A DNA stretch of 18,076 nt, taken from NCBI GenBank assembly GCA_023512255.1, contig JAILZY010000070.1:1-18076 (forward strand). Reading direction: 5' to 3'. Shown here piece after piece: positions 2,118-17,910 of the stretch (positions are counted from its first letter, which is position 1; each line of letters begins with the position of its first letter). This stretch comes from a bacterium. GTDB lineage: Bacteria > SZUA-182 > DTGQ01. The notes under the pieces are model-generated. The model was not told the origin of the DNA and did no database searches. It was given only the letters and a program-made list of their open reading frames with translations. The position numbers and the translations under genes were made by a program.

Positions 2118-2230
2118 CGCTCTTATTTATTAGCTACCATTGAGAGACAAAACCCTAATAAGAGCTAAGCTCCTTCGAGGGTTTATGGTTGTTCTGATAT
2201 AGGGTTTATGGTGTCTGATATATAAGAGAG
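2118..2230 (+). mobile_element. MITE family 1, copy 1 (113 bp)
   Basis: The ends form imperfect terminal inverted repeats: left CGCTCTTATTTATTAGC..., right ...GATATATAAGAGAG, both continuing to ACCAT inward. The flanks ACCATTTT (2110-2117) and GCCATTTT (2231-2238) match at 7 of 8 positions, which fits an 8-bp target duplication. Inside are an AACCCT/AGGGTT inverted repeat and a direct repeat of GGGTTTATGGT followed by CTGATAT. It encodes no protein and ends only 34 nt before the start codon of the phosphohydrolase, so its right end lies in that gene's leader. Other copies are at 8913-9027, 11652-11772 and 16606-16636. Confidence 0.8.
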
Positions 2231-5071: not shown

Positions 5072-6457
5072 ATGAAGCGCAGGATTATCCTGGCTGGCTT
5101 GGCGGTCTTAGGGGGAGCTTTGGTATTCGTATGGCTGAAACCATTTTCCTCACCGAAAGAAGAAAGGGTGGAGGGATTGGCTAGCGCTAGAATCGAGCGG
5201 GGTAGCATTCAGGTAACTGTTGCCTGCACGGGGAAGGTAGTTTCAAACCAGGATGTTGAGATCAAATCGAAGGCCAGCGGAGAGATAAAAAAGCTTCCCT
5301 TCGATGTCAGCGATCCTGTGCGGGCTGGAGACTTGCTGGTAGAGCTTGATCCGTCGGATGAGCAGCGGAACCTGGAGAAGGCTCAGGCTGCGTTGGATGC
5401 AGCCAACTCTCAGCTCAACAATGCCAGGCAGGATCTAGCCATTGCCGAAAATCAGCTGCTGACCACCAAGCTGAATATCGAGGCCGAGATCTCATCCGCC
5501 AAGGCTACTTGGGAAGATGCGGAAAATAAGGCTAGACGGGAAGAGCAACTCTACCGCAAGAAGCTCTCAAGCCAGGAGATGATGGACAGTCAGAGAGCTG
5601 AAGCTGCCCGGGCCAAAGCCGCCTATGAAAAGGCCTTGGTCAAGCAGGAAGAGCTAAAGACCAAGGAAATGGAACTTGAGCTTAGGCGGCAAGCTGTCCG
5701 GCTTGAGGAAAGCCGGGTGCGGGCCGCCAAGGTGGACCTTGAAATCGCCAAACAGCGGCTTGCAGACACCCGGATTCTCTCCCCAATGAATGGAATTGTA
5801 ACGGCCAGGGATGTCCAAATTGGCCAGATTATCTCATCAGGAATCAACAATATCGGCGGCGGAACCACAATTTTAACCATATCTGATCTGAGTCGCATTT
5901 TTGTCATCGCCTCAGTTGATGAAAGTGATATCGGCAAGATCAAGCTTGGTCAAAAAGCCAAGATTACCGTAGATTCCTATCCTGATGAGCTCTTCTCTGG
6001 TCAGGTGGTCCAGATCGCTACCCGTGGGGTCAATATCAGCAATGTGGTAACCTTTGAGGTTAAGATCGAGGTTGTGGGAAAAAATAAATCACTTCTGAAG
6101 CCTGAGATGACAGCTAATGTTCAGATTATCGCTATGGAAAAGGCCGGAGTGTTGCTTATCCCGAATGAGGCGGTTGAGTTTTCATCCGAAGGGCCGAGAG
6201 CCCAGGTCATTTGGCCAGATGGCAAGATCGAATCTCGCTCCCTAACCCTGGGGCTTGACAATGGTGAGATAGCCGAGGTCATCGCTGGCCTTCGGGAAGG
6301 GGAAAAGGTTTGCCTGCATTCAGGGCAGGTCCAAAGCAGATGGTCAAAGAGCGGAAAGTATAGCAGCAGTAGCAGTCAGGGGGAGCAGCAGAAGGGTGAG
6401 CAGCAGAGGGAAAGGGGAGGCTTTGCGGCTTTCAGGAGAAGATCGAAGGAAGAGTAG
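5072..6457 (+). CDS. MacA-like periplasmic adaptor (membrane fusion protein)
   Basis: This 461-residue membrane fusion protein would bridge an inner-membrane ABC transporter and an outer-membrane channel. A short basic N-terminus and one hydrophobic segment (about residues 5-22) anchor it in the inner membrane. Next come the first half of a lipoyl-like domain (GKVVSNQDVEIKSKASGEI, about 52-70), a long Ala/Glu/Lys-rich coiled-coil hairpin (about 95-235), the second lipoyl half (LADTRILSPMNGIVTARDV, about 235-255), a beta-barrel and a membrane-proximal domain. The end is an unusual Ser/Gln/Glu-rich tail (SSSSSQGEQQKGEQQRE) with a basic patch. The start is supported by a GGGGGGAG run just upstream. 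ATPase and permease genes follow on the same strand, giving the order expected for a MacA-MacB-TolC system. Its stop codon lies in an 18-bp tandem duplication. Confidence 0.93.
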   Translation: MKRRIILAGLAVLGGALVFVWLKPFSSPKEERVEGLASARIERGSIQVTVACTGKVVSNQDVEIKSKASGEIKKLPFDVSDPVRAGDLLVELDPSDEQRNLEKAQAALDAANSQLNNARQDLAIAENQLLTTKLNIEAEISSAKATWEDAENKARREEQLYRKKLSSQEMMDSQRAEAARAKAAYEKALVKQEELKTKEMELELRRQAVRLEESRVRAAKVDLEIAKQRLADTRILSPMNGIVTARDVQIGQIISSGINNIGGGTTILTISDLSRIFVIASVDESDIGKIKLGQKAKITVDSYPDELFSGQVVQIATRGVNISNVVTFEVKIEVVGKNKSLLKPEMTANVQIIAMEKAGVLLIPNEAVEFSSEGPRAQVIWPDGKIESRSLTLGLDNGEIAEVIAGLREGEKVCLHSGQVQSRWSKSGKYSSSSSQGEQQKGEQQRERGGFAAFRRRSKEE

Positions 6458-6488
6458 AAGGCTTTTGCAAAGTAGAAGGCTTTTGCAA
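6453..6488. repeat. 18-bp perfect tandem duplication across the adaptor stop codon
   Basis: The unit AGTAGAAGGCTTTTGCAA occurs at 6453-6470 and again at 6471-6488 without a mismatch. The first copy contains the TAG stop (6455-6457) of the adaptor gene, so the 3' end of the gene has been duplicated into the spacer. Confidence 0.85.
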
Positions 6489-6494
6489 GGATTC

Positions 6495-6652
6495 AATAAT
6501 ATCAATCTAATAATATTAAATAATATCATAATATTATGATATTATTTAATATTATGATATTATTTAATATTATGATATTATTTAATATCAATCTAATAAT
6601 ATTAAATAATATCATAATATTAAATAATATCAATATCAAATAATATCAAAAA
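6495..6652. repeat. AT-only palindromic repeat with a perfect 44-bp palindrome
   Basis: This block is almost wholly A and T, with TAATATTATGATATTATTT-type 19-bp units repeated in both orientations. Bases 6511-6554 form a perfect 44-bp palindrome (22-bp arms, no spacer). A second inverted pair, GATATTATTTAATAT/ATATTAAATAATATC, surrounds CAATCTAATA further right. It lies inside the exporter operon, between the adaptor and the ATPase gene, where a long AU hairpin in the mRNA could affect stability or read-through. A duplicated GATGATGGGGGAAAATGCAA-like segment follows at about 6677-6716. Confidence 0.8.
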
Positions 6653-6814
6653 ATATGTATTTTTGCGCTTGCCCAGGGATGATGGGGGAAAATGCAAGAT
6701 GATGGGGAAAATGCAAGGTTTGGTATGAAAGATCACTTTCAATTGAGGTTTAAGGCATGGAGAGGTTTCTGTGTGGGCGTAACAGGAAGCATCGAGCAGC
6801 AAGGGGCTTTCATC

Positions 6815-7474
6815 ATGCTGGTGGTTGAAGAGGTTACCAAAAGATACCGGATGGGCGATCAGGAGATTTTGGCTCTTAATCGGGTTTCTCTCACTGTAGA
6901 CAGAGCCGAGATGGTGGCCATTGTAGGGGCCTCAGGGAGCGGAAAGTCTACCCTGATGCACATTCTGGGCTGTCTGGATCGTCCTGATTCAGGCCGGTAT
7001 GTGCTCAATGGCCGGGATGTGTCAAGACTTTTGGGGGATGAGCTGGCCAGAATTCGGAATCGAGAAATTGGCTTTGTTTTTCAAACATTTAATCTTCTGC
7101 CACGGATGAGTGCCCTGGAAAATGTAGAGCTTCCCCTTCTTTATGCTGGACATCCGGCAGCCAAGATCGAAGCGGCTAAAGCCCTTGAGCAGGTTGGGCT
7201 GGCTTCCCGCATGTACCATGAGCCGAATCAACTCTCTGGCGGACAGCGGCAGCGGGTGGCCATTGCTCGGGCTCTGGTAACTAATCCATCCATAATTTTG
7301 GCTGACGAGCCTACCGGCAACCTAGACAGCAAGTCGAGTGAGGAAATCATGGCTGTTTTCCAAAGGCTTAACCGAGAGGATGGTCGAACAATCATCATTG
7401 TTACCCATGAGCAGGAAATTGCTGCAAAATGCCAGCGTCAGATTCGGATCCGTGATGGCCAGATTTTATCGTGA
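6815..7474 (+). CDS. ABC transporter ATP-binding protein (MacB/LolD type)
   Basis: This 219-residue cytoplasmic ATPase powers the adjacent FtsX-type permease. All nucleotide-binding motifs are present: Walker [10 protein letters not shown] (residues 38-46), Q-loop [10 protein letters not shown], signature [15 protein letters not shown], Walker [13 protein letters not shown] and the H-loop VTHEQE. The sequence fits the lipoprotein/macrolide exporter (LolD/MacB) subfamily. In E. coli MacB the ATPase and permease are one chain; here they are separate genes, as in many other bacteria. I chose ATG 6815 (preceded by AAGGGG at 9 nt); an upstream in-frame ATG at 6692 would add 41 residues unlike the family. 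A 19-bp near-perfect tandem duplication (7451-7469 and 7470-7488) covers the gene's end and includes the TGA stop. Confidence 0.94.
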
Positions 7475-7540
7475 TGGACAGATTTTATGAAGAGTGTGAA
7501 AGGAAGATGAAGATAGAGTTGTCATGAGGAGAGTTTGCCG

Positions 7541-8749
7541 ATGCTCATCTTGACCCTGATTAAGGTTTCCCTAAAGAGCCTGTGGGCCAATAAAATGCGC
7601 TCCTTTCTGGCCACCTTGGGCATCATTATCGGCGTTGGGGCAGTGATTGCCATGCTTGCTCTTGGAGAGGGAGCCAAGCGGCAGATTACCCAAAAAGTTT
7701 CTTCTCTGGGGAGCAATCTGATGATCTTGCGGCCTGGGCAGAAGGGAAGTCGCGGGGTTCAGAGCAGCACCTACGACAACTTAAAGCTTGAGGATGCCGA
7801 AGCCATCCTGCATAAGGTGCCTGAGGTCTTGCAGCTTTCGCCGGTCATCCGGGGCAGTGCTCAGGTAAAATATTTGAATCAGAATACCCGTGTTCCGATC
7901 ACTGGCGCGGCAGTAACCTATTTTTCGATCCGAAACTTCGCTCTTCAGCATGGGCGGCCATTTACTGATGCTGAAACCAGAGAGCAGGCTAGGTTAGCTG
8001 TAATCGGATCGCAAACCGCTGATGATCTGTTTAAAGGGCGCTCTCCTCTTGGCAAGGTGATCAAAGTGAACGGCCTGAATTTTAAGATTATCGGCCTGCT
8101 GAAGGTCAAGGGTGATGAAGGCTGGTACAATCCGGACAATCAGCTCATTATCCCTTACACTACAGCCATGAAGCAGCTCTTTGGGCTTGATTACCTTGGG
8201 GGGATTGACCTTCAGATCAAAAAAGGGGTTGATCCTGAGGAAGTTAAAAAGAAGATCACGGCGGTGATGAGACACCAGCATCGGATCCCGGCTGATATGC
8301 CTCTTGATTTTACCCTTCAGAGCCAGGCCGAGGTTCTCGAAACTCTAAACTCCATCACCCTGGCCCTGACCCTGCTGCTTGGCGGAATTGCCAGTATCTC
8401 CCTCCTGGTAGGTGGGATCGGGATCATGAACATTATGCTGGTTACCGTAACCGAAAGAACACGGGAAATTGGTATTCGCAAGGCCTTGGGAGCCCGAAAC
8501 CGAGATATCTTGCGGCAGTTTCTCTTTGAGTCTACCCTGATTAGCCTGATCGGCGGAGGCATTGGCGTGGCCCTTGGCATTGGCATCTGCTATTTGATTG
8601 ACTCTATCTTTTCCTTCTCTACCCTGATTCAGCCTACCTATGTGGCTATTGCCTTTTCATTTTCGGCGGCAGTGGGCACTTTTTTTGGATTTTATCCGGC
8701 TCTGCGAGCGGCAAGACAAGATCCGATCGAGGCCTTAAGATATGAGTAA
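7541..8749 (+). CDS. ABC transporter permease, MacB/FtsX family
   Basis: This 402-residue inner-membrane protein has the standard MacB architecture. An N-terminal amphipathic segment and first helix (about residues 5-45, with LRSL-like SLWANKMRSFLATLGIIIGVGAVIAML) lead into a periplasmic domain (about 45-265). The C-terminal FtsX unit has three membrane helices at about 270-305, 330-355 and 365-390. The loop VTERTREIGIRKALGAR and the ending PALRAARQDPIEALRYE are hallmark FtsX/MacB motifs. With the ATPase 66 nt upstream and the adaptor before that, it forms the motor part of an efflux or export machine. ATG 7541 has GAGGAG 9 nt upstream; a TTG two codons earlier is too close to the SD. The substrate is unknown; family members export macrolides, peptides, siderophores and lipoproteins. 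The 3' end is repeated in several partial copies of GCCTTAAGATA (8732-8805). Confidence 0.94.
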   Translation: MLILTLIKVSLKSLWANKMRSFLATLGIIIGVGAVIAMLALGEGAKRQITQKVSSLGSNLMILRPGQKGSRGVQSSTYDNLKLEDAEAILHKVPEVLQLSPVIRGSAQVKYLNQNTRVPITGAAVTYFSIRNFALQHGRPFTDAETREQARLAVIGSQTADDLFKGRSPLGKVIKVNGLNFKIIGLLKVKGDEGWYNPDNQLIIPYTTAMKQLFGLDYLGGIDLQIKKGVDPEEVKKKITAVMRHQHRIPADMPLDFTLQSQAEVLETLNSITLALTLLLGGIASISLLVGGIGIMNIMLVTVTERTREIGIRKALGARNRDILRQFLFESTLISLIGGGIGVALGIGICYLIDSIFSFSTLIQPTYVAIAFSFSAAVGTFFGFYPALRAARQDPIEALRYE

Positions 8750-8905
8750 CGCCTTAAGATAAGAGCCTTAAGATAAGATATGATTAGTCTTAAGATATGA
8801 TTAACAAGGATGAGTAAAGATACAAGTAATACATACATACAAAGTAATACATACATAAAGATATAAGTAATACATAATAAGATACTCGCAATACAATACG
8901 ATTAA
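8732..8905. repeat. Tandem repeats extending from the permease 3' end
   Basis: GCCTTAAGATATGAGTAAC (8732-8750) contains the permease stop codon and is followed by GCCTTAAGATAAGAG, CCTTAAGATAAGATATGATTAG and TCTTAAGATATGATTAAC. Next come repeats of AAGTAATACATACATA to about 8875. The block appears to be successive slippage copies starting from the gene's last codons. Confidence 0.7.
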
Positions 8906-8912
8906 CCAGATT

Positions 8913-9027
8913 CGCTCTTATTTATTAGCTACCATTGAGAGATATACCCCCCTAATAAGAGCTAAGCCCCTTCGAGGGTTTATGGTTACTCTGATATAGG
9001 GTTTATGGTGTCTGATATATAAGAGCG
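8913..9027 (+). mobile_element. MITE family 1, copy 2 (115 bp)
   Basis: This element has the same terminal inverted repeats as copy 1, CGCTCTTATTTATTAGC at the left and TATATAAGAGCG at the right. The interior also matches, with CTAATAAGAGCTAAGC, TTCGAGGGTTTATGG and a second GGGTTTATGG. The flanks ACCAGATT (8905-8912) and ACCAGAGA (9028-9035) match at 6 of 8 positions, in keeping with an eroded 8-bp target duplication. It lies between the permease and TolC genes, about 240 bp before the TolC start. No coding capacity. Confidence 0.8.
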
Positions 9028-9063
9028 ACCAGAGATTATAACTAGATGATGAGTGGTCCTCTC

Positions 9064-9128
9064 GCTAACAAAGTGCGCAATTTGGGCGGGCCCCAAGGTC
9101 CACCCCTACAATTGATTGGGTAATTGGA
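9064..9128. repeat. Dispersed repeat family 3, copy 2
   Basis: GCTAACAAAGTGCGCAATTT and CCCCTACAATTGATTGGGTA followed by ATTGGA match the repeat at 973-1076, with a related but imperfect GC-rich hairpin between them. Here the 20-bp unit is single rather than triple. The following 9130-9240 is GATGATG-rich and holds nothing else I recognise. Confidence 0.75.
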
Positions 9129-9265
9129 TCTGCTCTCGAATTTAGCGAAAGAACCAATTAGATGGTGATTAACTGGATGATTAGTATGGTGATGATGCCA
9201 TTGATGATGTGGATGATACCGTAATGAGTAATCTGCTATCTGTTTTCAGCAGAAGGAGAGAAACT

Positions 9266-11077
9266 ATGAACACTACCAGCCTACCGATTGTATGGCTACT
9301 TTTTGCCTTGCTGCCCTCCTTTTTTATTCCAGGGGTCAGCAGGGCAAAGGAGCCTTCCAGGATACATCAGGGATTTTTGGAAACCGATCGAAGAGAGGTG
9401 GCTGAAGTGGATAGAGAGGCTACTGCTGAAGTGGGCCAGGAGCCCTCTGGATCAGAGCCCTCTGGATCAGAGCCCTCTGGATTAGAGCAGAAGACTGAGG
9501 TCCCAAAATCATCATCAGGCCCTTCGAGCCCTGAATACCTAACTTTTAGTCTGGAAGATGCGGTTTTGCTAGCCTTAAACCGAAACCGCGACCTCAAGGT
9601 TCAGATCATCAATCCCCAGATCGCCGAGACCGCAGTCGAGGAAAAGAAAGCTTCTTTTGATTTTGAGCCATCGTTAAAACTCCAGGTTGAGCAAACTACG
9701 GACTCTAGTTTACTTAGCCAGAAGGATATCCGCAAGGCAGCTCGCGATGAATATCCCAATATGCCTGATGAGATCTTTGACTCATACTTTAACGAATATT
9801 TTGGTAATGTACGGCAGGCTGAGATTGAAAAAAAGGCTCAAATTTCCGGTGGAGCACTTTCGCTTTCCAAGCTTTTCTCAACCGGAACAAGGCTTGAGCT
9901 CAATCTTCAAGGTCAATATAGCGATGAGGAGAGAAGCCAGCGGATCAGCAAAACCGACGCAGCAGAGGAAAAATTATCATCATCATCAAGCCGCTCCAAT
10001 GCCTCGGCCAGCTTGACCCTCACCCAGCCTCTTCTGGCCGGCAGGGGGAGGAAAATCAACCTCTGCCTGGTCCGTGAGGCGGAATTTGACCGGCAGATTT
10101 CTGCCTATGAGCTTAAGCAGTATGTGATTGAGCTTGTGGCCAGGGTTCAAAAAACGTACTGGGACCTGGTACTGGCTGAAGAGAAGCTGAGCATTCGGGA
10201 AAAATCCCTAGAGTTATCCGAGCGCCAGATGGAGGAAACCAAGGAGAAGATTCGGCTGGGGAAACAGGCTGAATCAGAGCTCATCTTTGCCCAGGCCGAA
10301 GTGGCTGCAGAAAAGGGGAAGGTGATTGACGCAAAGAGCATACTAACCCAGCGGACCCTAGATTTTTTGCGCCTCTTAAACCCTGAGGTCGATATGCTCT
10401 GGGAGCGGCGGGTTACCCTGACCACTCCCCCGGCTCCGATCGAGCAGGAGATAGGCCCGATGGATGAGCTCATAGCTACAGCCTTTCGGTCCAGAGCCGA
10501 CCTTGCCCAGGCTTATCTCAATCTTCAGAAGGGAGACCTCGAAGTAATTCGGACCCAAAATGGACTCATGCCACGGCTTGATTTTTTTATCACTCTAAAA
10601 AGCCTGGCCTCTGGGATCCAATTTCCTGTCTCTCTCAGTGACTTTAACGGTTCTGACTATGCAGTGGGTTTTAGCCTTTCTCGGCCCTTGGGTAACATTG
10701 GAGCTAAAGCTCAATCCCGCCGAGCCGGCTTGAGCCGTCTCAAATATCTTGAAAGCATCGAGAATCTGAAGCAGGCCATTCAGGTTGAGGTCCGAAAGGC
10801 AGTGGTGGAGATCGAGCGCTGTCGGCAGCAGATTGTGGCCATGCAGGCTAATCGGAGCAGACAGGAAGAGAAGCTGAAGGTCGAGCAGGAAAAATTTCGT
10901 CTTGGCCGATCCACAAACCTGGCCGTCTTTCAGGCTCAGCGGGACCTTACTGAAGCCAAACTCGGCGAGGTTACCGCAGTTGTTGACCAGATTAAGGCTT
11001 TCATTGATCTTAAGGTGTGTCAAGGGACCCTGCTGCAAGAGTGGTCGATTGAGATGGCTTCCCCGCTCATCAGGTAG
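9266..11077 (+). CDS. TolC-family outer-membrane efflux channel
   Basis: This 603-residue protein would form the trimeric outer-membrane exit duct for the adaptor/ABC pump encoded just upstream. The start, ATG 9266, has AAGGAG at 8 nt and opens a clear signal peptide (hydrophobic core PIVWLLFALLPSFFIPGV, probable cleavage after SRA near residue 26). A Ser/Pro/Glu-rich linker follows, with three copies of a 15-bp unit encoding EPSGS-type pentapeptides (9440-9484). The first OEP half begins at YLTFSLEDAVLLALNRNRDL (about residue 90) and the second near residue 390 (GPMDELIATAFRSRADLAQAYL). Long Glu/Lys/Gln-rich helices (REKSLELSERQMEETKEKI...) fit the periplasmic alpha-barrel. At 603 residues it is longer than typical TolC proteins (roughly 430-490), owing to the linker and an inserted region around residues 150-270. 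Minus-strand ORFs inside it are shadows. Confidence 0.92.
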   Translation: MNTTSLPIVWLLFALLPSFFIPGVSRAKEPSRIHQGFLETDRREVAEVDREATAEVGQEPSGSEPSGSEPSGLEQKTEVPKSSSGPSSPEYLTFSLEDAVLLALNRNRDLKVQIINPQIAETAVEEKKASFDFEPSLKLQVEQTTDSSLLSQKDIRKAARDEYPNMPDEIFDSYFNEYFGNVRQAEIEKKAQISGGALSLSKLFSTGTRLELNLQGQYSDEERSQRISKTDAAEEKLSSSSSRSNASASLTLTQPLLAGRGRKINLCLVREAEFDRQISAYELKQYVIELVARVQKTYWDLVLAEEKLSIREKSLELSERQMEETKEKIRLGKQAESELIFAQAEVAAEKGKVIDAKSILTQRTLDFLRLLNPEVDMLWERRVTLTTPPAPIEQEIGPMDELIATAFRSRADLAQAYLNLQKGDLEVIRTQNGLMPRLDFFITLKSLASGIQFPVSLSDFNGSDYAVGFSLSRPLGNIGAKAQSRRAGLSRLKYLESIENLKQAIQVEVRKAVVEIERCRQQIVAMQANRSRQEEKLKVEQEKFRLGRSTNLAVFQAQRDLTEAKLGEVTAVVDQIKAFIDLKVCQGTLLQEWSIEMASPLIR

Positions 11078-11637: not shown

Positions 11638-11651
11638 AATTAAAAGAGGTT

Positions 11652-11772
11652 CGCTCTTATATATCAGACACCATAAACCCTATATCAGAACAACAATAAA
11701 CCCTCGAAGGGGCTTAGGGGCTTAGCTCTTATTAGGGTTATGTCTCTCAATGGTAGCTAATAAATAAGAGCG
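11652..11772 (-). mobile_element. MITE family 1, copy 3 (121 bp), perfect 8-bp target duplication
   Basis: The same element as copies 1 and 2 is present in reverse orientation. CGCTCTTATATATCAGAC is at the left and AGCTAATAAATAAGAGCG at the right. It is flanked on both sides by exactly AAGAGGTT (11644-11651 and 11773-11780). A small internal duplication (GGGGCTTAGGGGCTTAG) accounts for its extra length. It ends 55 nt before the NRPS start codon, so it makes up much of that gene's proximal upstream region. Confidence 0.88.
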
Positions 11773-11827
11773 AAGAGGTTAAAAAAGAGGGCTTAGAATT
11801 AGAAGAATTAGGATTGGAGAAGGTTTT

Positions 11828-12490
11828 ATGAGCATGTTCTCGCTTTATCCCCTAACTTATCCCCAGCGGGCCATTTGGCTCACTGAAAAGGTTTACCCCA
11901 ACACCAGCATCCATAATATAACCTGTTCGGTAAAGATCATGGGAGAAGTTGACTACTCCCTTCTTTCTGAGATGATCAATCTCTGCCTCGAGCAAAACGA
12001 CGGCCTTCGCTTTCGCCTCATCGAACATAACGGCCAGCCGAAGCAGTATGTAAGCCCCTATACTCGACGGGAGATCCCCTTTTTCGACTTCAGCCAAAGC
12101 ACTGGGCCGGAAGAACAATTATATGCTTGGGATAGAAAGATCGCCGCTTCGCCGATGAAGCTCATCGAGAGCGATCTTTACGACTTTGCCCTTTTCCGCC
12201 TGAGCAGTTCTGTGGGTGGGTTTTATATCAAGCTTCACCATCTCATTTCTGATGCCTGGGGACTGGCCGTTACGGTGGACTGGATTTTGAAGAACTATTT
12301 TGAAAACTGCTCAAAGAAGAATATTGAGGACTGCTCAAAAGGGAACGGCTCAAAGCAAAGGTGGGAGGCTGAAGACGGGCGGGGTTTGGTTGAGGAATCG
12401 GGCTGGGAAGATAATGAGGAAGACTTAGGGAGAAGCTCTCAAGAAGAGGAAGAGGAAAAAAGAGAAAGGGGAAATGTCCTTCTTATTTAG
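11828..12490 (+). CDS. NRPS, first part: N-terminal half of condensation domain
   Basis: These 220 residues are the start of a non-ribosomal peptide synthetase. YPLTYPQRAIWLTEKVYP (residues 5-22) is the C1 motif. The catalytic C3 motif is HHLISDAWG, with H137, H138 and D142 (the HHxxxDG pattern, Ala replacing the usual Gly). After residue about 160 the chain becomes a low-complexity Lys/Asn/Glu-rich linker (SQEEEEEKRERG) and stops at TAG 12488. The C domain resumes one frame back at SYLDYLLSEQ (from 12481), so this is half of a split gene. The start ATG follows a GGAGAAGG sequence. A C domain with no carrier protein before it suggests a starter domain that acylates the first amino acid, or one taking its donor from another protein. 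Confidence 0.85.
   Translation: MSMFSLYPLTYPQRAIWLTEKVYPNTSIHNITCSVKIMGEVDYSLLSEMINLCLEQNDGLRFRLIEHNGQPKQYVSPYTRREIPFFDFSQSTGPEEQLYAWDRKIAASPMKLIESDLYDFALFRLSSSVGGFYIKLHHLISDAWGLAVTVDWILKNYFENCSKKNIEDCSKGNGSKQRWEAEDGRGLVEESGWEDNEEDLGRSSQEEEEEKRERGNVLLI
12469..12475 (+). other. Frame change point; in-phase X XXY YYZ heptamer GGGAAAT
   Basis: The NRPS reading frame must move by -1 between 12418 (where the downstream frame opens) and 12490 (stop of the upstream frame). Within that overlap, G GGA AAT has the X XXY YYZ pattern in phase with the upstream frame, 13 nt before its stop. A purine-rich AAGAGGAAGAGG lies about 15 nt upstream. A slip there would give GGG AAA TGT CCT TCT TAT TTA GAC, joining directly to SYLDYL. 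A single-base loss in the A6 or G4 runs, real or from assembly, explains the data equally well. Confidence 0.3.
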
Positions 12491-15400
12491 ACTATCTTCT
12501 CAGCGAACAGGCCTTTACCAGTTCAGCAAGGTGGCAGAAAAATAAAGCCTTCTGGGAGGAGAAATTCAGCACTATCCCTGAGCTGACAGACTTAACATCC
12601 GCTCCCTTAGGCCAGCGCCGGCTGGAGGCGGTAAGGAAAACCTTTTTGCTCGATCAAGCCTTGACGGCTCAGGTCCGCGGCCTCTGCCGTCAGCTGGGCA
12701 TTTCCGTGCCTGTCCTCTTTCAAGCCCTCCTCTTTACCTATCTCTACCGCCTAACCTCCCAGCACGATCTGATCATCGGCACTCCCCTTCTGAACCGCTT
12801 AACTCCGGCTGAAAAAAACACCATTGGTATGTTTGTCCATAACCTCCCCCTGCGCCTCTATGTTGATGAAGCTAAACCCTTTGGGGATTTTGTCCATGAG
12901 GTAGCTAAAGAGGCAAGAGCAGTGTTAAAGCATCAAAGATATCCCTATGAGCTTTTACTGCGCTATGTCAGGCAAAGACACAACCTTCAGTCCACTCTCT
13001 ACAGCCTTGTCCTATCGCCTATTAACGCCGCGCTGGATAGTTATAATAGACAGCATGTCAGGGCGAGGTGGCTTTTCCCTGAAAGCCAGCCTGAGCCTTT
13101 GATCATTCACCTAACTGATCCTGCATCCTCTGATCCTGCGGGCGAAGGCCGCCTGATGATGCACTACGACCACCGGCTCGATCTCTACTCTCCGGCCGAT
13201 ATTGAGCGCCTGCATCAGCACCTGCTGAATCTTCTAACCGATGCGGCTCATCATCCTGAAAAGAGGCTTTATGAGCTGAAGCTCCTCTCAGAGGCGGAAG
13301 AGCGGCAGATTTTATACGAATTTAATCAAACCAGCCTAGATTATCCTCAAAAAGATAAGACCGTGCACCAGCTTTTTGAAGAGCAGGTCAAGCGGACGCC
13401 TGAAAGCCCTGCGCTGGTCTTTAGGGGAGAATCCTTAACCTACCGCCAGCTCAATGCTCGGGCTAATCAGCTGGCCCGGCGGCTGAGGGAAAAGGGCGTC
13501 GGCCCGGATGATATTGTCGCCCTTATTCTGCCCCGCTCGCTGGAGATAGTCATCGGCATGATGGGCATTTTAAAGGCCGGCGGAGCCTATCTGCCCATAG
13601 CCTTCGATTATCCGCTCGAGCGCATTAAATACATGCTGGAAGACTCGAGGGCTAAGCTCATTATCACTCAAGAGAGCCTCTATCGAAAGATCCACCAGCA
13701 GATTAAGCCTACAGGGCAGTCTGAGGCAGGCCTTAAGGGCGAGGTCATCTTTCTCGACCAGGATTTCTTTTCAGAGAATGAAAATGAGGCCGCAGACCTG
13801 CCGAATCAAAATCAGCCTAAGGATCTGATCTATGTTATCTACACCTCAGGCTCAACCGGCCGCCCCAAGGGAGTAATGATCGAGCACCGGGGTGTCAGCA
13901 ACTATCTTCAGGCTGTCCATCCCATCCAGCAGGCTCAGGCAGGCCAAACTTTACTATCTATCAACAGCGTTTCTTTTGATATGTTTTCTATGGAGATTCT
14001 TTTTTCGCTCTGCTTTGGGCTGAGAATCATTTTAGCCAGCGAGCCAGAGATTCAAAATCCAAGGCTTTTAGCCCAGCTGATAGAAAAATACCGCCCTGAG
14101 ATCATCGTAGCTGTTCCCTCCTTTGCCAGCCGCTTCTTGGATGATAAATTTTGGGCTGATCAAAAGGAGAAAACCAGCCAGAACTTACAGGATGCAGGCC
14201 AGCCGCAGATTAAAACCTTTTATTTAGGAGGAGAGCCGGTTACGGTTGAGCTGATAAACAAATTAAAGCAGAGATTTCCAGGGGTTAAAATAATTAATGC
14301 ATATGGTCCTACAGAGATTACTATGGCCTGCACTGCCAAGGATATTTCAGCCGGTGAGCCGCTGATAGGCCGTCCCCTAGCCAATTATCAAATTTTCATT
14401 CTCGATCAATACCAACATCCTCTTCCCGTCGGCACAGCAGGTGAGATCTGCGTCAGCGGTGTAGGTCTAGCTCGGGGCTACCTAAGACAGCCTGAGCTTA
14501 CCAGCCAGCGCTTTGTGCCTCATCCCTGGGTGAGGGGAGAGAGGATTTACAAAACAGGCGATCGGGGCAGGTGGCTGCCGAGCGGGGAGATAGAGTTTTT
14601 GGGAAGATATGATAATCAGGTAAAAATTCACGGCCAGAGGGTAGAGCTTGGAGAAATTGAACACTGCCTTTTGGGGCACGAAAAGATCAAAGAGGCTGTG
14701 GTAGCAGTTGAAGATGACGGCAGAGGCCAAAAGCAGTTGTGCGCCTATCTAGTGGCTGAAGATGGGCTTAAGCTGGCTGAGCTCAAGCTTTTTTTAGGTG
14801 AGAGACTGCCTCGCCACATGATACCGACGCGCTTTTGCCGGCTTGCCAAGATTCCCCTCACCGCTAGCGGGAAAATCGACCGCCGGGCGCTCGCTCAGAC
14901 AGCTGAGGCGGTTGAGGCTGAGACTGAATACGAAGCCCCGCAGGGAGGGGATGAGGAGCGGCTGGCGGCTATTTTCGGCGAGGTGCTCGGCTTAGAGCGG
15001 GTGGGGGCTAGGGACAGCTTCTTTGATCTTGGGGGTGACTCTTTGAGATTTATGGATCTGGCGGCAAGGATTTATCAGGAGTTCGGCTTTGGCCTGGGGC
15101 TGCAGGATTTTTGGGCAAAGCCTACGGTCAGAGATACAGCTAGATGGCTCGCTCAGAAGAAAGAGAGGGAGAAAAAGAATATCAGGCCGCAGGATAATAT
15201 CAGCCCGCAGGATCAGCTTCAGTCGGGGCAAGACGGCGGCAGGCGACTGAGGGAAGAGGAGATAGACGCTGGGGGCGGCGGCCGCGGTAAGAGCTGTGAA
15301 GTTAACAGCCGGTCCTATTTTAACCCGTCCTATTTTGACTTTTTTAAAATGCTCTCTGAGCCTCCAGCCAGACTGATTGAGGAGGGGAAACTGCCGAGGC

Positions 15401-16545
15401 TGACTTCGGCGGCTTTGGTTTATCTGCCGGATGAACTGCCGGCGGCTGTTAAGGACGATTTGGGAGATGAGCCTCTGCTCTACGGTCTAATTGAGACCGG
15501 CGGCTGGGGACAGATTGGGCTGGTAGCTGTTCCTGTGTTTGCTCGGGAGCTTTACAGCCATAAGGAGAGGCTAATTAACTTATGCCTTAAGGCAGTAGAG
15601 CTGGCTGGTTACCTCGGGGCTAGAGTAGTCTCCTTAACAGGCTTAATCCCCTCAGCTACCGACTACGGCCGGGCAGTCAGCGGCCGGCTTGGGGAGAGGG
15701 GGCTTGAGGTTCTGGTCAGCACAGGGCATGCGGCTACGGTGGCGGCTGTGCTTTTAACGCTGGAGAGACTGCTTCAGACCAGCCAGCGGGACCTTGGACT
15801 AGAGCGGCTGGCGGTGGTAGGGTTAGGGTCGATCGGGGCCGGGGTTGTAAGGTCCCTGCCGCTTTTATTTTCTCCTCAGCCTGAGTTGATTATCTTGTGC
15901 GATCTGGCGAGCAGGCATGAATTTTTGACCAAACTCAGGCAGGAGCTTAAGGATGAGGGCGGCTTTAAAGGCTCGATTGAAATTGCTCTGGCTGATGGCC
16001 CCCACTTGCCCGATAAGGTCTATCAGGAGGCCACGCTGGTTGTCGGAGCTTCCAACATAAGCGGCATCTTAAGGGTAGCTGAACTGAGATCAGGTGCTTT
16101 GATAGTTGATGATTCGGCCCCGCACTGCTTTTCTCCGCAGGAGGCTGTCGCTAGGCTGATAGAGAAAAATGATCTTCTGTTTACGGAGGGAGGCGTTTTA
16201 GAATCGCCCAGGCCACTGAGACGGCAGGTTTATTTACCAGCAGGGAGCGGGCTGACAGTTCTAACCAGCTTTGAGAGGCACTTTTTTGCCAGCAGTGAGA
16301 TTACGGGCTGTATTTTGTTAAGCCTTCTTTCAGCCAGCTATCAAGACCTGCCGCCTACCTTGGGTCAGCCGACAGGGCAGGAGTGCTGTCGCTACTACCT
16401 AAAGCTTAAGGAGCTGGGATTTAGAGGTGCGGCTGCCCATCTTCAGAATTTCGTTCTGCCTGAAAACTCGATCGAAAGGTTTAGGAGCATCTATAACCAG
16501 CAGTTTTTAGCCCTCGGCGGCGGTGGTCGAAGAAAAGCTGGTTAA
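12475..16545 (+). CDS. NRPS, main part: C (rest)-A-PCP-AAR-like reductase
   Basis: About 1,355 residues continue the NRPS. No ATG, GTG or TTG start occurs in this frame before TTG 12646, and C-domain sequence already begins at 12481, so it is not an independent gene. Numbering from 12646: C5 IGMFVHNLPLRL; a full adenylation domain with A3 YTSGSTGRPKG (399-409), A5 NAYGPTE (551-557), A7 YKTGDRG, A8 GRYDNQVKIHGQRVELGEIE (653 on) and the A10 lysine K743 in ASGKIDRR; and a carrier domain with LGGDSLRFMDL (phosphopantetheine Ser799). After a polar linker, about 410 residues resemble acyl-ACP reductase: STGHAATVAAV (1025 on), Rossmann motif GLGSIG (1059-1064), EGGVLESP and FERHFFASSEI. This would release the thioester as an aldehyde. 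The Cys expected after the GGV motif is replaced (Pro1188); C1161 is a nearby alternative. The exporter genes lie upstream on the same strand. Confidence 0.88.
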   Translation, partial: CPSYLDYLLSEQAFTSSARWQKNKAFWEEKFSTIPELTDLTSAPLGQRRLEAVRKTFLLDQALTAQVRGLCRQLGISVPVLFQALLFTYLYRLTSQHDLIIGTPLLNRLTPAEKNTIGMFVHNLPLRLYVDEAKPFGDFVHEVAKEARAVLKHQRYPYELLLRYVRQRHNLQSTLYSLVLSPINAALDSYNRQHVRARWLFPESQPEPLIIHLTDPASSDPAGEGRLMMHYDHRLDLYSPADIERLHQHLLNLLTDAAHHPEKRLYELKLLSEAEERQILYEFNQTSLDYPQKDKTVHQLFEEQVKRTPESPALVFRGESLTYRQLNARANQLARRLREKGVGPDDIVALILPRSLEIVIGMMGILKAGGAYLPIAFDYPLERIKYMLEDSRAKLIITQESLYRKIHQQIKPTGQSEAGLKGEVIFLDQDFFSENENEAADLPNQNQPKDLIYVIYTSGSTGRPKGVMIEHRGVSNYLQAVHPIQQAQAGQTLLSINSVSFDMFSMEILFSLCFGLRIILASEPEIQNPRLLAQLIEKYRPEIIVAVPSFASRFLDDKFWADQKEKTSQNLQDAGQPQIKTFYLGGEPVTVELINKLKQRFPGVKIINAYGPTEITMACTAKDISAGEPLIGRPLANYQIFILDQYQHPLPVGTAGEICVSGVGLARGYLRQPELTSQRFVPHPWVRGERIYKTGDRGRWLPSGEIEFLGRYDNQVKIHGQRVELGEIEHCLLGHEKIKEAVVAVEDDGRGQKQLCAYLVAEDGLKLAELKLFLGERLPRHMIPTRFCRLAKIPLTASGKIDRRALAQTAEAVEAETEYEAPQGGDEERLAAIFGEVLGLERVGARDSFFDLGGDSLRFMDLAARIYQEFGFGLGLQDFWAKPTVRDTARWLAQKKEREKKNIRPQDNISPQDQLQSGQDGGRRLREEEIDAGGGGRGKSCEVNSRSYFNPSYFDFFKMLSEPPARLIEEGKLPRLTSAALVYLPDELPAAVKDDLGDEPLLYGLIETGGWGQIGLVAVPVFARELYSHKERLINLCLKAVELAGYLGARVVSLTGLIPSATDYGRAVSGRLGERGLEVLVSTGHAATVAAVLLTLERLLQTSQRDLGLERLAVVGLGSIGAGVVRSLPLLFSPQPELIILCDLASRHEFLTKLRQELKDEGGFKGSIEIALADGPHLPDKVYQEATLVVGASNISGILRVAELRSGALIVDDSAPHCFSPQEAVARLIEKNDLLFTEGGVLESPRPLRRQVYLPAGSGLTVLTSFERHFFASSEITGCILLSLLSASYQDLPPTLGQPTGQECCRYYLKLKELGFRGAAAHLQNFVLPENSIERFRSIYNQQFLALGGGGRRKAG
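15310..16500 (+). other. C-terminal acyl-ACP-reductase-like domain of the NRPS
   Basis: This part of the NRPS does not look like the usual SDR-type thioester reductase (no N-terminal GxTGFLG dinucleotide motif). The order of motifs matches cyanobacterial AAR as I recall it. A small-molecule-binding N-terminal part is followed by a helix with STGHAATVAAVLLTLERLL (AAR: TTGNTHTAYVICRQVEAA), then AVVGLGSIGAGVVRSL (AAR: AVVGATGDIGSAVCRWL), a LIVDDSAP strand (AAR: LIDGGYP), a LFTEGGVLES segment (AAR: YVLNGGVVEH), and a late FASSEITGCILLSL helix (AAR: FACFAEAMLLEF). The AAR nucleophile lies two residues after VVE in VVEHCF and is not conserved here. The assignment rests on motif order only. Confidence 0.65.
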
Positions 16546-16605: not shown

Positions 16606-16636
16606 CGCTCTTATATATCAGACACCATAAACCCTA
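16606..16636 (-). repeat. MITE family 1, truncated copy 4
   Basis: CGCTCTTATATATCAGACAC followed by CATAAACCCTA is identical to the left end of copy 3 (11652 on) and then breaks off. A MITE family 2 element begins 4 bp later. No other end of this copy is visible beyond that element, so the rest has been lost. It lies 60 nt after the NRPS stop, in the same orientation as the copy just before the NRPS. Confidence 0.75.
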
Positions 16637-16640
16637 CTTG

Positions 16641-16794
16641 CTACCGGACACATTTTATCTTCCGGTTTTGTATACACAGTGAAAGTGCAGGCATTTCATG
16701 TCATTCTCGCGTGGGCCAAATCCAGAGGGTTGCTGCAATTATAAATGGATTATCACTTTCGCGGGCATGACGATAAAAAAGTGTCCGGTAGTGA
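16641..16794 (-). mobile_element. MITE family 2, short form (about 154 bp)
   Basis: The left end CTACCGGACACATTTTATC and the inverted right end (CACTACCGGACACTTTTTTA on the minus strand) form terminal inverted repeats. Read on the minus strand, the interior shares GCAGCAACCCTCTGGATTT, a GAATGAC segment and TGCCTGCACT with the larger element at 17618-17910. No clear target duplication is seen. It encodes nothing. Confidence 0.75.
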
Positions 16795-17061
16795 AATTAG
16801 GAGTTATATAAGAAATTAGGAGTTATATAAGGAGAAGGTTCGGAAATCATACAAAAGAGTATAGGAATACCCAAATTTTTTAACACCAAGACAACCCCAC
16901 TAACACTCCTTATACATAAAATAGTAAATAAATAAAGTAATTTTTAAACGAAAAAGACGCATATTTAACCACAAGAAAGTAGAAATAAAAAGAAAGCAGG
17001 AAAAGGAATGGATTGGGTGATTTGAAATGAGTTAATGTGATGAATAAACGAATGAACTAAT
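16793..17061. other. Gene-free A-rich stretch
   Basis: It opens with a 19-bp tandem duplication (AAATTAGGAGTTATATAAG twice, 16793-16831). The rest is A-rich sequence in which I see no gene, RNA structure or repeat. It also holds the downstream region of the minus-strand coiled-coil gene, without an obvious terminator hairpin. Confidence 0.5.
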
Positions 17062-17601: not shown

Positions 17602-17617
17602 CTTTTTATAATCATTT

Positions 17618-17910
17618 CACTACCGGACCACTTTTATCGTCATTCCCGCCAAAGTGGTAATCAAAGTGGTAATCCATGTATGGTTGCAGCAACCCTCTGG
17701 ATTTCCGCCTATGAGGGAATGACAAGAGCAGAAGCAGCAGCCCCCCACCTTGCATCTTTGAACTCCCGCCTATGCGGGAATGACAAGAGCAGAAGCAGCA
17801 GCAAAACCCCTTGCATCTCTGAACTCCCGCCTATGAGGGGATGAGATGAAATTGCCTGCACTCAAGAAGGCATATAAAAAACCGGACGATAAAATATGTC
17901 CGCTAGTAAG
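17618..17910 (+). mobile_element. MITE family 2, expanded form, perfect 10-bp flanking repeat
   Basis: The left end CACTACCGGACCACTTTTAT and the inverted right end (CTTACTAGCGGACATATTTT on the minus strand) bound the element. It is flanked on both sides by exactly ATAATCATTT (17608-17617 and 17911-17920). Compared with the 154-bp form it carries a 12-bp duplication (AAAGTGGTAATC) and an internal array with a 61-bp period: CCGCCTATG starts at 17705, 17766 and 17827, with GGGAATGACAAGAGCAGAAG in the first two units. It has no plausible gene. Confidence 0.78.

Follow-up and report, generated by a model that had tools for sequence, protein, structure and literature searches.

The question posed by this locus is what kind of element a short repeat occurring four times within 18 kb might be, and which transposase could have spread it. 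The DNA analysed, referred to here as the window, is 18,076 nucleotides long and is the entire contig C71 of a 3.83-Mb, 172-contig bacterial genome. A preliminary description had proposed a MITE with 8-bp target duplications, mobilised in trans by an insertion sequence (IS) that it left unnamed.

Copies in the window and their neighbours

The repeat is found at all four of the positions first given for it, with flanking 8-mers exactly as had been described for the three full copies:

2118-2230, plus strand: MITE copy 1; with flanking duplications, 2110 to 2238; imperfect pair ACCATTTT/GCCATTTT, matching at 7/8 positions
8913-9027, plus strand: MITE copy 2; with flanks, 8905 to 9035; ACCAGATT/ACCAGAGA, 6/8
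11652-11772, minus strand (opposite orientation): MITE copy 3; with flanks, 11644 to 11780; perfect pair AAGAGGTT/AAGAGGTT, 8/8
16606-16636, minus strand: MITE copy 4, truncated; right end alone, 31 bp

The window contains the tip CGCTCTTAT at six places, all of them at MITE copies, against approximately 0.14 occurrences expected if a uniform base composition is assumed. A seventh tip, at the right of copy 1, is mutated to CTCTCTTAT (AGAGAG). All three full copies are intergenic. Compared with the 113-bp consensus, copy 1 differs by 3 substitutions and copy 2 by 4, with 2 bases inserted in the latter as well; copy 3 has a single substitution and has 8 bp duplicated internally. The suggestion that copy 3 is the youngest is weakly supported by its single substitution, while its own internal duplication counts against it. 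MITE left ends are more frequent in the window than the genome average, which would predict 0.51 for a stretch of this size, but this high density means little as the window was chosen for its copies. A search of the window against Rfam matched no known RNA family.

Directly next to copy 4, from 16637 onwards, lies a member of another, unrelated repeat family. This second short repeat (16637-16800, with part also at 17614-17727) is approximately 160 bp long, has the inverted ends TTGCTACCGGACAC and TTCACTACCGGACAC, and gives 44 matches in the genome. In three of its copies the 8 bp on either side are the same (GGTAAAAT in L171, AAATTTAC in L173 and CCCTCTTA in L174), and the family therefore appears to be a further MITE that generates 8-bp duplications. 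The source genome is repeat-rich, and dispersed repeats of two more types, GCGCAAGCGGGAATCC and GGGCGG..CC..GG.CC.CCCCTACAATTGATTGGG, lie at 450-900, 985-1070, 9068-9125 and 17639-17850 of the window. Among the genes, copy 3 lies immediately upstream of the start of an NRPS-like gene (11828-16545) with condensation, adenylation and carrier domains, the condensation domain being divided between open reading frames at 11828-12490 and 12646-16545. A MacB/TolC-type efflux cluster (5072-11077) is found upstream of this gene.

Copy number and target duplications in the genome

Searching the whole genome for the element, as the preliminary description had proposed, gave 108 matches to a 21-mer from the left end and 103 to one from the right end with up to 3 mismatches allowed, while reversed-pattern controls gave 0 matches in the same genome. 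The copy number is therefore approximately 110, the family's most notable feature. The consensus is 113 bp long with inverted CGCTCTTAT tips, has no coding capacity and folds into a single hairpin. Of 66 directly matched end pairs, 18 span 113 bp and 9 span 90 bp, the two most frequent lengths, and the identity of copies to the consensus has a mean of 95.8% and a median of 97.3%. The genome-wide analysis drew on the stretches around MITE copies. Of 38 copies for which long flanks were available, only 3 overlap an open reading frame of at least 110 amino acids, so the family is mostly intergenic, and the genes beside these 38 copies are found in all orientations. Several contig ends lie approximately 55 bases past a MITE tip, and the family thus breaks the assembly.

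The duplication is 8/8 at 56 and 7/8 at 15 of the 93 left ends whose flanks could be parsed, giving 71 of 93 at 7/8 or better in a parse where the duplication was itself part of the right-boundary score, favouring matches somewhat. An earlier parse, in which the boundary was set by the end sequence alone, gave 24 perfect and 7 near-perfect duplications out of 38. When flanks were shuffled and randomly paired, a match of at least 7/8 was obtained in only about 2% of draws. The 71 duplications have a base preference, with A at position 1 in 57 and T at position 8 in 60, and perfect duplications persist at some copies with small indels close to the right tip. The repeat thus has the features of a MITE: a short non-coding sequence with inverted ends, duplications of constant length and many, mostly intergenic, copies. 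The initial assignment had been open to refutation by inconsistent ends or duplications across the genome, and it holds.

It is at this point that a different kind of repeat has to be considered. Structural or regulatory palindromes of the REP/ERIC type, whose spread is due to recombination or to a single-strand transposase of the RAYT type, would also be mostly intergenic and palindromic and could reach some 110 copies, and the genome does contain other palindromic repeats. Such an origin predicts that duplications would be missing genome-wide, yet most copies carry the 8-bp target duplications that are a mark of DDE transposition and are unexpected for RAYT/REP spread, and the ends coincide with those of the IS1595 element described below. 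We regard this origin as the least probable of those considered, and extremely unlikely.

A candidate partner of the IS1595 family

By reading inwards from MITE-type ends that had no partner we found an IS with such ends, the kind of element that the preliminary description had proposed to search for. At two loci, on contigs C83 and C97, the right end is followed by identical sequence that is not MITE. The IS is complete on C83, where it spans approximately 1,096 bp (L096:174-1269) and contains a single gene, an IS1595-family transposase in one frame interrupted by an in-frame TAG. The two parts of this transposase match Zn_ribbon_IS1595 (PF12760) and DDE_Tnp_IS1595 (PF12762) above the Pfam cut-offs, although neither part on its own reaches the NCBIfam cut-off for IS1595. 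The residues D141, D226 and E262 align with the invariant catalytic residues of other IS1595 transposases. A second copy, 99% identical, is cut off by the end of contig C97 after its first 212 bp, while C101 holds a relic of the IS left end of approximately 40 bp.

The right ends of the MITE and the IS are identical at 21 of 22 bases, and the left end of the MITE is identical to the C101 relic form at 19 of 23 bases; the C83 left end has one extra A (CGCTCTCAATTTATTAG). Between the ends, blastn-short detected no similarity between MITE and IS. The 8-bp duplication expected of an IS1595-derived element is present for the MITE and absent at the one complete IS copy, where no matching flanking duplications were found. 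The C83 element is a candidate IS1595 partner with MITE-type ends, and this particular copy may be dead, given its in-frame TAG and unmatched flanks.

Comparison with other IS1595 systems supports the assignment. Eight haloarchaeal IS1595 elements, including ISNpe6, have CGCTC[T/A] at both ends and at least one CGCTCTT end each, and a Natribaculum copy has a perfect 8-bp duplication, TTTTCATA. The transposases of these elements are 32-35% identical to that of the partner but, unlike the MITE, the elements are autonomous, approximately 1,000 bp long and have other inner end sequences. Duplications of 8 bp are usual for IS1595 elements (PMC8101967). ISApl4, of the IS1016 group of IS1595, likewise has many copies (39) with AT-rich 8-bp duplications, but is an autonomous IS of 712 bp with the ends GGGGCTGTACTAGA (PMC12561309). 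The closest parallel in kind, likened here by its description, is an ISHwa6-related MITE of Haloquadratum walsbyi, which is also a short non-autonomous IS1595-family element (165 bp) with long inverted repeats (25 bp) and 8-bp duplications, but has an archaeal host and 7 copies rather than approximately 110 (PMC3852290). IS1595-family transposases on plasmids reach an identity of no more than about 40% in the aligned part, among the matches listed; the closest of these, from Thiothrix (40%), has the ends GGCTCAATATG rather than CGCTCTT. No convincing ends were found for an Entomospira relative, and the IS1595 genes that genomes of the same genus and family contain (26-49% identity, short matches) did not show MITE-type ends.

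The repeat is thus very probably a non-autonomous MITE that belongs to an insertion sequence of the IS1595 family. A DDE transposase of IS1595 type, consisting of a zinc ribbon and an ISXO2-like catalytic domain, would recognise the ends of approximately 22 bp common to the MITE and the IS (CGCTCTYATWTATYAG...) and, acting in trans, would move the 113-bp MITE, which would insert at AT-rich 8-bp targets and duplicate them. Mobilisation in trans, as originally proposed, now has a candidate with matching ends on C83, and we infer the trans action itself.

Which IS1595 element was the driver is less clear. Base 7 of the ends is T in most MITE copies (CGCTCTT) and C in the C83 and C97 copies of the IS (CGCTCTC), so the actual driver could be a sister IS that was lost or is missing from the assembly. 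The interrupted frame on C83 and the existence of another group of MITEs whose ends differ slightly point the same way, while the CGCTCTC tip is found on some MITE copies and the C83 gene was the only match to PF12762, giving a single kind of IS1595 transposase in the genome. A sister element in place of the C83 one is a realistic version of the IS1595 explanation, if the less favoured one; spread by a C83-type transposase or a close sister, since lost or unassembled, would cover both. A smaller and more diverged MITE-like group, with the related ends CGCTYTYATATAGCAGACACC ... GGCATCTAATAA...GAGCG, was observed on other contigs (L100:217-355, L098 and L099); L100 gives seven genome matches, and L074 and L078 may belong to it.

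A driver from outside the IS1595 family was also considered. ISL3 elements have GGCTCTT tips, similar to those of the MITE, and also generate 8-bp duplications. DDE_Tnp_ISL3 (PF01610) gave 0 matches in the genome in a search that was positive in 4 control genomes, and IS1595 elements with CGCTCTT tips do exist, with an IS1595 element of the source genome sharing long end identity with the MITE. An ISL3-family transposase is accordingly a very improbable driver, and was dropped because it is absent from the genome.

Distribution and meaning

The MITE was absent from 39 other genomes searched, one of them of the same genus, and is specific to the source genome among the genomes sampled. Exact 21-mer scans of genome contigs and viral contigs did not find it, and a phage collection gave no match. 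The IS DNA had no match in a plasmid collection, and a scan of genome contigs with the N-terminal part of the C83 transposase gave no relative. MITEs derived from IS1595 elements are a known kind, and the present family is new only insofar as the collections searched contain no match to it.

It is possible, though unlikely, that some of these approximately 110 mostly intergenic hairpins were recruited as a promoter, terminator or mRNA-stability element of adjacent genes; if this were true, a burst of an IS1595 MITE would have rewired expression in this lineage. Contigs that end inside the MITE help to account for the fragmentation of the assembly. The family adds a high-copy IS1595 MITE, tied to an IS partner within its own genome, for a sparsely sampled bacterial lineage with 9 genomes of the phylum in the searched collection. 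The findings also suggest that a CGCTCTT tip together with an 8-bp duplication would mark an IS1595 group common to bacteria and haloarchaea, which would be useful in annotation.
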